Shown piece by piece: positions 53,448 through 56,667 of a stretch of 64,000 nucleotides of DNA. Numbering within the stretch: position 1 is the first letter of the stretch; each line of letters starts with the position of its first letter. The translations under genes were made by a program, and so were the position numbers. The notes below the pieces were generated by a model. The model was not told the DNA's origin. It worked only from the letters and a program-made list of their open reading frames with translations, and made no database searches. The DNA comes from Chloroflexota bacterium (GTDB lineage Bacteria > Chloroflexota > Anaerolineae > J036 > Brachytrichaceae): the NCBI GenBank assembly GCA_030550095.1, contig JAUQQA010000002.1, positions 62,001 through 126,000 of the forward strand, written 5' to 3'.

Positions 53448-54172
53448 CGCGCGCTCAGCTCAGCAAGGCTGGCCTCAAGCCGCACGTCCTCGATCAGCTT
53501 GCCCTCGCGCAGGCGGAAGACGCGATCGGCAATGCCCACCATCTCCTCGCTATGCGTCACCATCACAAGATTCTTGCCCGCTTGGCGCGTCAGCGCATCG
53601 AGCAGTTGCAACACTTGCTGCCCTGTGTCGTAGTCAAGGTTGCCTGTCGGCTCATCGGCGAGCACCACGAGCGGATCGTTGATCAACGCGCGGGCGATTG
53701 CGACACGCTGTTGTTCGCCTCCACTCAGGCGCTCTGGGAAGGCATGCATGCGATGCGCAAGCCCCACCTGCTCGAGGAGCGCTTCAGCACGCTGCCGCGC
53801 CGTGTGCGTCGGTTGACCCCCTAGTTCTAACGGCAGCATCACGTTTTCGAGCGCAGTGAGCGTTGGGATCAGGTTGAACGCTTGAAAAACGAACCCGATG
53901 TTGCGCCTGCGGAAGAGCGTGCGCGCGTGATCGTCGAGGCGGTTGATGACCTGACCGCCTATGCGGATTTCACCTGCAGTGGGCGCATCAATGCCGCCGA
54001 TCAAGTTCAACAAGGTGCTTTTGCCGCTGCCGCTCTTGCCCAGAAGCACAACAAACTCGCCACGCTTGAACGATGCGCTAACTTCGTGCAGCACAGTGCG
54101 GCGTTGACCGCCTTCTTCGTAGGTCTTCGTCACACGCTCGAGCTGAATCATCACCTCTGGGTCGCCCATCAC
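53444..54172 (-). CDS. ABC transporter ATP-binding protein (LolD/MacB type)
   Basis: 242 residues counted from GTG 54172 (ATG 54169 is the alternative). Walker A is [19 protein letters not shown]-loop [18 protein letters not shown], signature [16 protein letters not shown], Walker [14 protein letters not shown] and the switch His in VMVTHSEE. The pattern fits LolD/MacB/FtsE-like ATPases that work with FtsX-type permeases for lipoprotein, peptide or toxin export. No permease gene is adjacent. Minus-strand TACAAT (54186-54181) ends 8 bases before the GTG. Confidence 0.92.
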
Positions 54173-54230
54173 GCGACGCGATTGTAGTCAGCGCAGAATA
54201 GAAAATGAGCTGCTTCCCAAAGGCCCTCCG

Positions 54231-54236
54231 TAAAAT
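54231..54236 (+). promoter_or_regulatory. -10 hexamer for the ProRS-like gene
   Basis: TAAAAT ends 9 bases before ATG 54246. Together with TACAAT on the minus strand at 54181-54186 it marks a divergent promoter pair. Confidence 0.5.
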
Positions 54237-54245
54237 GAAAGCCTC

Positions 54246-55757
54246 ATGCGGCTCTCGGCTTTGTTCTCTTCGACGCTGCGCGAGACACCAGCAGGAGTGA
54301 CGCATGAAGGCTTGCGCCTCCTTGTGCGCGCGGGGTACGTGCGCTTGCTTGAAGGTGGGCAACGCGCTTACCTCCCCCTCGGTCAGCGCGCATTGAGCAA
54401 GCTCGCGCGCCTTTTAGAGTCGGCGGTGTGCTCAATAGGCGCTCAACCTGTTGCTGTGCCCGAAGTGCACGCCTTCGCACCGCTTGCGCGCAGCGTGGTT
54501 CGCTCGTATCGCCAGCTTCCACAGATCGCTTACGCGCTCGAGCTTGGTGGCGCTGCACCCCGATTCCACCTATGGACGCTCACGCGCACGGCAGAAGAAG
54601 ACGCACGCCTGCACGACTCCGTTCTTCAGGCGCTGCGCTCAGCGTTTGAGCAGGCAGGTCTCGTCGTGCAGCAAACCGAGCACGGCCTAGCCCGCTTCAA
54701 CGACGCAGGCGAAGCGCTGCTTGCGAAGTGCGACACCTGTGGCTATCTCGATTTCGCGGACTGGGCACAGTTTGCACGCACTGCTGTTTCAAGCGCTGAA
54801 GCAAGGCTGCCATTGGAGCGTGTTTACACGCCCGCTTGCAAAACGATTGAAAGCCTCGCGCAGTTTTTGGGTATCCCCACCGCTGCAACGGCAAAGGCGT
54901 TGTTCTTCGTCGCTGCTTTCGAGCGCAACGAGCGGCTTGTGTTCGCTGTTGTGCGTGGGGATCTGCGGGTGAGCGAGGCAAAGCTGCGCAGCGCACTTGG
55001 CGCGCACGCGTTGCGCCCAGCGAGCGAGCTGGAGATCCGCAGCATCGGCGCTGAGCCAGGGTTTGCCTCACCGGTCGGTCTGGTGCGTGATGGGCGCTGG
55101 CTGCTGGTGGTGGACCCCAGCATCGTCGAGACACCCAACCTTGTTGCTGGCGCAAACGCGCCAGACTATCACTTGCGCAACACGAACTACGGGCGAGATT
55201 ACACGGCTGATCTCGTCGCAGAGATTGCGATGGCTCCAGAAGGAAGTCAATGTGCAAGATGTGGCGCACCGTTGCGTTGGGTGCGTGGCGATGCACTCGT
55301 GCATGAGCAGCAGCACGTCTATGAGGGGACATATCTCGACCCTGCGGGGAATGAGCGCACGCCTCTGCTACGGCTCTATAGCGCTGCACTCGATGACCTG
55401 CTCTGCGCGCTTGCTCTCACGTATCGCGATGAATTTGGCTTAACGCTACCCACTTCTGTAGCGCCGTATCATGTTCACTTGGTCGTGTTGGGCAAGGACG
55501 AAGCAACCTATCGGCAAGCCGAAACGCTCTACACCCAGCTCCTGCACCAGAACATCGAGGCACTCTTTGACGATCGCAGCGAATCGCCGGGCGTCAAGTT
55601 CAACGACGCCGATCTCATCGGCGCACCAGTGCGGCTCACAGTGAGCGCGCGATCGTTGCAAGCAGGTGGCGTCGAAATGCGCTTCCGTGCCAAGAAGGAG
55701 ACGATGCTCGTGCCCTTGGAGGCTGTGGTCGAGCGCGTAAGCGCAGCGCTTGCCTAG
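54246..55757 (+). CDS. ProRS-like protein with class II catalytic motifs lost
   Basis: 503 residues, against about 570 for bacterial prolyl-tRNA synthetase. The start (MRLSALFSSTLRETPAG, LLVRAGYVRLLEGG, YLPLGQRAL) and RSYRQLPQIAY are clearly ProRS. The segment carrying GPTHEE is deleted; motif 2 (FRDEIRPRFG) is replaced by ALELGGAAPRFHLW; motif 3 (MGCYGIGVSR) by LLRLYSAALDDLL. The INS editing domain (about 195-330, with AKALFFVA and GFASPVGL) and anticodon-binding domain (about 405-503, with SESPGVKFNDADLIGAPVR) remain. It probably cannot activate proline; a true ProRS must be elsewhere. It may edit or bind tRNA-Pro. Confidence 0.75.
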   Translation: MRLSALFSSTLRETPAGVTHEGLRLLVRAGYVRLLEGGQRAYLPLGQRALSKLARLLESAVCSIGAQPVAVPEVHAFAPLARSVVRSYRQLPQIAYALELGGAAPRFHLWTLTRTAEEDARLHDSVLQALRSAFEQAGLVVQQTEHGLARFNDAGEALLAKCDTCGYLDFADWAQFARTAVSSAEARLPLERVYTPACKTIESLAQFLGIPTAATAKALFFVAAFERNERLVFAVVRGDLRVSEAKLRSALGAHALRPASELEIRSIGAEPGFASPVGLVRDGRWLLVVDPSIVETPNLVAGANAPDYHLRNTNYGRDYTADLVAEIAMAPEGSQCARCGAPLRWVRGDALVHEQQHVYEGTYLDPAGNERTPLLRLYSAALDDLLCALALTYRDEFGLTLPTSVAPYHVHLVVLGKDEATYRQAETLYTQLLHQNIEALFDDRSESPGVKFNDADLIGAPVRLTVSARSLQAGGVEMRFRAKKETMLVPLEAVVERVSAALA

Positions 55758-56332
55758 CGGGCTGGTTGCCCTGCCAGCACCAGTTGCTCCCCACAGGGCG
55801 AGGCGCGTTCGCACCAATCCAACACAACGTGAAGCTCGCCAATCACCTGAGCATTTGCCATGCGCGCTAGGTTATAGAGCGTAGGTTTCATGTTTTTGAC
55901 CTCGTGCAAAGCGCCACGATCGGCGAGCCAGGTGAAGGGCCAAATTGCAGGCAGCGCGTAGAGCGGCACACGCATAAGGTGTGCCACAAGCGTAGCGCGC
56001 TCATCTACAGGGGTCAGCTCAAAGCCCCACAATTGCCCAAAAGGCGGCTTCTTGAAGCCAGGACCAGAAAGCCAAATGAAGCGATAGGGGGGCTCGTAAA
56101 CCTGAATGTAGGAGCGTGTCGGGTACTGATACCAGCCGAAACACTGCCGTGATTGGAAGCAGGAACCAACGCCTATAGGAGGTGGCGTTACCCAGCGCGT
56201 CTCCATGACCTCGCCGCTGCCTGCCAGCTCTGGATGGCGCAGCGGATCACTGACGATCTCAAATAACAGTTCACACGGCGCTGTGATCAGCGCCGTGACT
56301 GTTGCACTAGGAAATTTGATCCAACGACCCAC
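55754..56332 (-). CDS. SRPBCC-family protein
   Basis: 192 residues from GTG 56332. The N-terminus (ATVTALITAPCELLFEIVSDPLRHPELAGSG) and the later VYEPPYRFIWLSGPGFKKPPFG with WGFELTPVDERATLVAHLM fit polyketide-cyclase/dehydrase-like SRPBCC proteins that bind hydrophobic ligands. A C-terminal stretch (LYALPAIWPFTWLADRGALH) resembles that of SRPBCC proteins acting in membrane or lipid contexts. TATAAA abuts the GTG on the minus strand. Ligand unknown. The stop is shared with the convergent ProRS-like gene (CTAG). Confidence 0.75.
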   Translation of the reverse strand: MGRWIKFPSATVTALITAPCELLFEIVSDPLRHPELAGSGEVMETRWVTPPPIGVGSCFQSRQCFGWYQYPTRSYIQVYEPPYRFIWLSGPGFKKPPFGQLWGFELTPVDERATLVAHLMRVPLYALPAIWPFTWLADRGALHEVKNMKPTLYNLARMANAQVIGELHVVLDWCERASPCGEQLVLAGQPAR

Positions 56333-56667
56333 TTTATAAGCTCTACCTACAAGAGAATTCGGATGATCAGCGTGTAGATCCGCGATATAGGATTGTCAGA
56401 CAAACTCCTATGTTCTGCAAGAGACTGAGAGGAAACTGAAGTGCAACCAGGGAAGGGATAAATTCAACGACGTTTCCTTTAAGGAAGAATTTTCTGTGCT
56501 ACAATGTTCCAAGCCAGGACAAGCTACGGCATCAGCTCTTAATTCTGCAGAGTTCAGACCGCGCTCCTGACCTCTTGCGACTATTCGCTGTCAAGCCCGC
56601 AGTTTGTGCATGGTGAAGCTGGAGCAGTGCGCCTTATTCGCGCTGCGATCTTTGGAAGGAATGTCTG
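56333..56667 (+). promoter_or_regulatory. Intergenic region with promoter and long 5' UTR of the RRM gene
   Basis: 335 bases, less GC-rich than its surroundings. TACAAT at 56500-56505 is the best -10; the transcript would carry a leader of about 155 bases ending in GGAAGGA before ATG 56668. Upstream (56333-56499) I see AT-rich sequence with TTTCCTTTAAGGAAGAA (56473-56489), a short inverted repeat (TTTCCTT/AAGGAA), and no gene. A long leader is typical of cold-responsive RNA-binding-protein genes. Confidence 0.45.

Follow-up and report, generated by a model that had tools for sequence, protein, structure and literature searches.

A prolyl-tRNA synthetase relative without a class II active site in Chloroflexota: a candidate free-standing editing factor for tRNAPro

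Aminoacyl-tRNA synthetase paralogues are often repurposed as regulators or tRNA-binding proteins, and in Sulfolobus-type archaea the editing protein ThrRS-ed is split from a separate ThrRS. Judged by analogy of arrangement, ThrRS-ed appears to be the closest functional analogue of the protein described here, since in both a free-standing protein combines an editing domain with an anticodon-binding domain (ABD) and charging is left to a separate enzyme (PMC11295145), and ThrRS-ed has been listed as a trans-editing factor (PMC4787780). The two differ in that ThrRS-ed serves another amino acid through an unrelated editing domain, whereas our protein keeps a core remnant and an N-terminal block and belongs to a set of apparently recurrent conversions. 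Duplicated synthetases, including Anabaena apo-T1 ThrRS, likewise act as trans-editors for a partner enzyme (PMC4787780); T1, however, retains a conditional synthetic site, and in our protein that site is permanently lost.

For proline, the INS editing domain of Escherichia coli ProRS has no tRNA selectivity itself and depends for editing on reading of G35/G36 by the ABD and not on the acceptor stem (PMC3973320; PMC11295145), and a K279A substitution leaves the enzyme editing-defective (PMC3973320). INS is absent from ProRS of the Thermus type, and many bacteria without a functional editing domain in their ProRS depend on ProXp-ala (PMC3973320). Outside ProRS, the members of the INS superfamily have been described as single-domain proteins, and trans-editors generally lack RNA-binding domains (PMC11295145). 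ProXp-ala, YbaK, ProXp-x, and ProXp-ST share the hydrolase fold and active-site lysine of our protein; however, they are single-domain, which our protein with its ABD and N-terminal block is not, and ProXp-ala recognizes the acceptor stem (PMC3973320) where our protein has kept its ABD.

The window, by which we mean the whole 64,000-nucleotide stretch analyzed here, comes from a 2.35-Mb assembly (97% complete) whose closest named relatives are Chloroflexota (Thermoflexales, Candidatus Roseilinea). One of its open reading frames encodes a bacterial-type ProRS that lacks the class II active site while INS and ABD are intact. Its features are as follows, with "invariant" denoting residues at least 95% conserved in intact relatives.

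54246–55757, + strand: core-eroded bacterial-type ProRS gene (INS-ABD protein, 503 aa), from the open reading frame, Pfam, NCBIfam, E. coli ProS alignment, and structure model
54246–54470, + strand: N-terminal ProRS block, residues 1–75 (motif 1 region), 13/16 invariant residues kept
54471–54692, + strand: collapsed class II core, residues 76–149, with the TxE loop deleted and the motif 2 Arg and acidic residue lost, 8/38 invariants kept
54729–54740, + strand: first Cys pair (Cys162-x2-Cys165) of a probable zinc knuckle on either side of INS, invariant in 16 relatives
54828–55187, + strand: INS/tRNA_edit domain, residues 195–314, from Pfam PF04073 and the invariant-residue count
54894–54896, + strand: Lys217, aligned with K279 of E. 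coli ProRS, the INS editing lysine
55170–55172, + strand: His309, aligned with E. coli H369, kept in all eroded proteins
55251–55262, + strand: second Cys pair (Cys336-x2-Cys339) of that probable zinc knuckle
55374–55403, + strand: motif 3 remnant LYSAALDDLL replacing (C/S)YGIGxxRLL, from the E. coli ProS alignment
55473–55742, + strand: ABD, residues 410–499, with the DDRxExPGVKFNDADLIG block intact, 21/22 invariants kept

An earlier reading of the sequence alone had described a continuous 503-codon frame, recognizable ProRS blocks at both ends, erosion of all three catalytic motifs, and intact INS and ABD; alignment and modeling bear out each of these points. The frame is uninterrupted, and its ATG lines up with the ProRS N-terminus. 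In the alignment against E. coli ProS, a gap took the place of the GPTHEE (TxE) segment, the motif 2 Arg-Asp-Glu (with R140 and E142) was absent together with the SHEF block, and SAALDD stood in place of GIGVTR in motif 3, leaving the protein without any of the features that define a class II ProRS (TxE loop, motif 2 Arg/acidic pair, motif 3 GxGxxR). A Pfam search matched only tRNA_edit (195–314) and HGTP_anticodon (410–499) and recognized no class II core family, and the NCBIfam proS model (proline--tRNA ligase) reached 264 bits, short of its 558-bit cut-off. The second of the two core parts retains 4/18 invariant residues and INS 29/33. The N-terminal block is still conserved, and part of it persists in related forms of only 400 aa. 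The solved structures nearest to the protein are bacterial ProRS enzymes. Its AlphaFold model is confident (mean pLDDT, 94; pTM, 0.88) and matches the full Enterococcus faecalis ProRS (2j3l) with a TM score of 0.81 on the query. The N-terminal block, INS, and ABD, common to this protein, E. coli ProS, and 2j3l, establish descent from a bacterial-type ProRS, and PF04073 with the catalytic lysine and the conserved Asp/His places it in the INS superfamily; unlike in those two enzymes, the TxE loop, motif 2, and motif 3 have been destroyed. Inferred from these losses and without biochemical data, the protein cannot be a synthetase by known chemistry.

A search of the genome for a complete proS, as the sequence-only reading had advised, returned a single complete ProRS, of the archaeal type (type I; TIGR00408, 522 bits), which lacks INS and keeps its own catalytic motifs (RPTSE, RWEKRTKPFLRTMEF, and WGMSWRL). 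The window gene is thus not the only proS of its genome, which removes the main refutation that had been foreseen. PF04073 had one match in the genome, the window gene itself; the eroded gene is also the sole match in a second genome of the genus (G002) and in several other eroded genomes, and in G001 the matches are two fragments of the eroded gene at contig ends. The three tRNAPro genes all carry C1:G72 and A73 and have the anticodons UGG, GGG, and CGG, so that G35 and G36 are present. The arrangement therefore matches the ThrRS-ed mode (editing domain with ABD, no functional core, and a separate charger without that domain), but not the ThrRS-ed family proper, which has a DTD-like archaeal ThrRS editing domain; the only editing-domain match here is PF04073.

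We consider it quite likely that the window protein is a free-standing editing factor derived from a bacterial-type ProRS, clearing tRNAPro mischarged by the type I enzyme, with tRNA binding, hydrolysis, and specificity all inferred. The two components on which INS-type editing depends, INS itself and the ABD, are precisely those that the window protein has retained. In the mechanism we propose, type I ProRS without INS would charge tRNAPro, a role that is itself inferred, and would be expected to yield some Ala- (or Cys-) tRNAPro. The released tRNA would be bound by the ABD of the window protein through anticodon bases G35/G36, and its 3' end would then be placed in the INS site, where the wrong aminoacyl ester may be hydrolyzed; synthesis of prolyl-adenylate by the window protein itself should be impossible. 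Ala is most likely the amino acid removed, an inference from the type of INS that no biochemical data yet support, and Ala-tRNAPro is also the substrate of ProXp-ala in cells whose ProRS lacks INS (PMC3973320). The earlier reading had left open a deacylase or a regulator; the deacylase is favored because the relevant residues are retained, the genome has no other tRNA_edit domain, and erosion recurs under an archaeal-type ProRS, whereas nothing supports a regulator resembling HisZ or PoxA.

If correct, this proposal would extend the proline fidelity system by a new and widespread trans-editing factor with its own tRNA-reading domain, and the homologues would show in natural stages how an essential enzyme, once replaced, persists as the proofreader of its successor. 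INS-ABD editing would be separated from aminoacylation in proteins of as few as 400 residues, in which the coupling of anticodon reading to an editing site about 70 Å away, left open previously (PMC3973320), could be studied. Core-eroded genes are also easily misannotated as proline-tRNA ligases. The earlier reading knew of no family combining INS and ABD with a dead core; we likewise found no published description of this architecture, of such a ProRS in Chloroflexi/Anaerolineae, or of the Asgard case below in the open-access literature.

Genome G002 encodes the same eroded protein at 64–65% identity, which rules out a sequencing error or frameshift as the source of the lost motifs. Between the two genes dN was 0.28 and dS 1.71, a ratio that is only rough because dS is near saturation; taken together, the homologue and these rates indicate that the window gene is not a decaying pseudogene either, in agreement with the earlier reading. 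Other close eroded pairs gave dN/dS values of about 0.1 to 0.35, with purifying selection on all parts of the genes and INS the most constrained in most pairs. Among the strongly eroded proteins (n = 50), retention of residues at least 95% conserved in 128 intact enzymes was 95% for the ABD and 90% for INS, fell to 61% for the N-terminal block, and was lowest in the motif 3 (29%) and TxE/motif 2 (22%) parts. The K279 equivalent was present in all 215 proteins covering that position.

Going beyond the earlier reading, the window gene is a member of a recurrent family that reaches into the Asgard archaea. We searched 396 genomes of the class: a bacterial-type INS-ABD protein is encoded in 296, and type I ProRS was matched at E ≤ 1e-70 in 253 (250 above the cut-off). 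Bacterial-type open reading frames numbered 216, and the 211 without 5' truncation were scored at six catalytic positions. Scores of 0 to 4, taken as eroded, were obtained for 69/211 genes (68 once G056 is left out of the count, since a fault in the assembly seems to break its frame), all in genomes with type I; the remaining 142/211 were intact or nearly so (score 5 to 6), and 66 of these 142 lie in genomes without type I. Fisher's test on the uncorrected table, which ignores kinship, gave a P value of about 7e-15 for the association, and a tree-aware paired test found no significant link because sister groups mostly share type I. In G023 (91% complete), a partly eroded gene (score 5, TxE lost) occurs with no type I found. 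Erosion is graded across the class. In family f27 the core is almost wholly gone; what remains, about 400 aa, comprises INS, the ABD, and some 50 residues of the N-terminus, and the model of such a protein (pLDDT 91) still matches ProRS. A conserved N-terminal block of f27, TQREFPNNARTxGFxWLVRAGYLTREN (G053 C1:4001248–4002186 and other f27 genomes), has no assigned role.

On the INS+ABD tree, about 20 switches between eroded and intact states were counted, at least 11 of them on well-supported branches; a smaller IQ-TREE tree required 20, of which no fewer than 9 were forced. Across the class, genomes have the bacterial type only, both types, or type I only (f14 and most of f38 versus f10 and f19), a mosaic suggesting that the archaeal-type enzyme was gained or lost repeatedly. 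The pattern fits an arrival of type I followed by erosion, an order that is undated. In eight genomes from three families, the type I and bacterial-type genes are same-strand neighbors about 0.4 to 2.9 kb apart (G184 C19, G366 C108, G386 C36, G288 C16, G183 C76, G365 C41, G038 C814, and G073 C245). The reverse of the window case was seen in G130 and G237 (L268 and L269; f46), both also with type I: the core is intact and INS is broken, with Asp at the H369 position and GYASP changed to GYVHS.

Outside the class, a contig titled Heimdallarchaeota carries an eroded homologue (L076:1640–3325) in a genome that also has type I ProRS. Full INS-ABD matches were found in 5/227 genomes of the phylum of L076 (loci L373–L377 in G396, G429, G434, G433, and G430). 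All five proteins lack the class II motifs and keep the INS and ABD signatures, and they group together within the bacterial tree as a single clade (94% support); a contig end truncates one protein, and there is one long branch. L076 is placed by its contig title, and the others only by the phylum assignment of their genomes. The flanks of the Asgard loci yielded no informative Pfam families. On balance we think it reasonably probable that replacement by a foreign synthetase has repeatedly turned the old one into a stand-alone editor, with some 10 to 20 independent ProRS conversions to INS-ABD trans-editors in one bacterial class and a separate Asgard clade, at stages from point erosion of motifs to near-complete removal of the core.

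Other readings of these proteins must be considered. That the substrate is not Ala-tRNAPro but Cys-, Abu-, azetidine-, or another analogue-tRNAPro remains possible, if unlikely: amino acid specificity varies among INS-family enzymes (YbaK, ProXp-x, and ProXp-ST; PMC11295145), yet the domain here is a ProRS INS with all diagnostic residues and not of the YbaK or ProXp-x type. Alternatively, the protein may serve only as an editing subunit, in complex with type I ProRS (or with tRNAPro and EF-Tu) and not independently. YbaK does act within a ternary complex that includes ProRS (PMC3973320), the motif 1 block is retained, and the two genes adjoin in the eight genomes listed above. However, the bacterial-type gene is intact or nearly so in 7/8 of those pairs, the window genome has the two genes on different contigs (C34 and C49), and the protein, made specific for its tRNA by the retained ABD, needs no partner; we regard obligate partnership as rather improbable.

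A non-editing role, whether in regulation as a HisZ-like subunit or in sensing uncharged tRNA, draws on the frequent reuse of synthetase paralogues for such purposes and seems to us very unlikely. A pure binder needs no INS catalytic residues, yet these are fully constrained in about 68 eroded genes, and the window gene lies beside an ABC ATPase gene and an SRPBCC-like gene and in no biosynthetic operon, without the linkage to a regulated biosynthetic gene that HisZ has with hisG. Graded erosion across the class might also be read as slow decay of a displaced ProRS, a reading we find scarcely credible given that the frames are open, dN lies well below dS in every domain, INS and ABD are constrained, the fold is confident, and the same end-point was reached repeatedly. 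We therefore retain the free-standing editing factor as the preferred reading, with two qualifications. INS editing is not always needed, because a tRNA_edit domain is entirely missing from nine of the type I genomes sampled (G098, G161, G215, G234, G280, G325, G337, G361, and G391), which apparently do without INS-type proofreading of tRNAPro. The INS-ABD factor can also be redundant, because many other eroded genomes additionally encode stand-alone INS proteins, sometimes several. Mandatory complementarity with stand-alone INS proteins is ruled out by these same two sets of genomes.

Around the window gene itself, the promoter that had been attributed to it was not recovered: no sigma-70-like site was found in 54000–56400. 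No conserved operon was found either; at locus L007 the downstream SRPBCC-like gene is retained and the upstream side is not. In the window, this SRPBCC-like gene (55754–56332, − strand) is convergent with the ProRS-like gene and overlaps its end by 4 bases, and at L007, where the two also adjoin, it is 95% identical to its window counterpart, compared with 64% for the ProRS-like gene.
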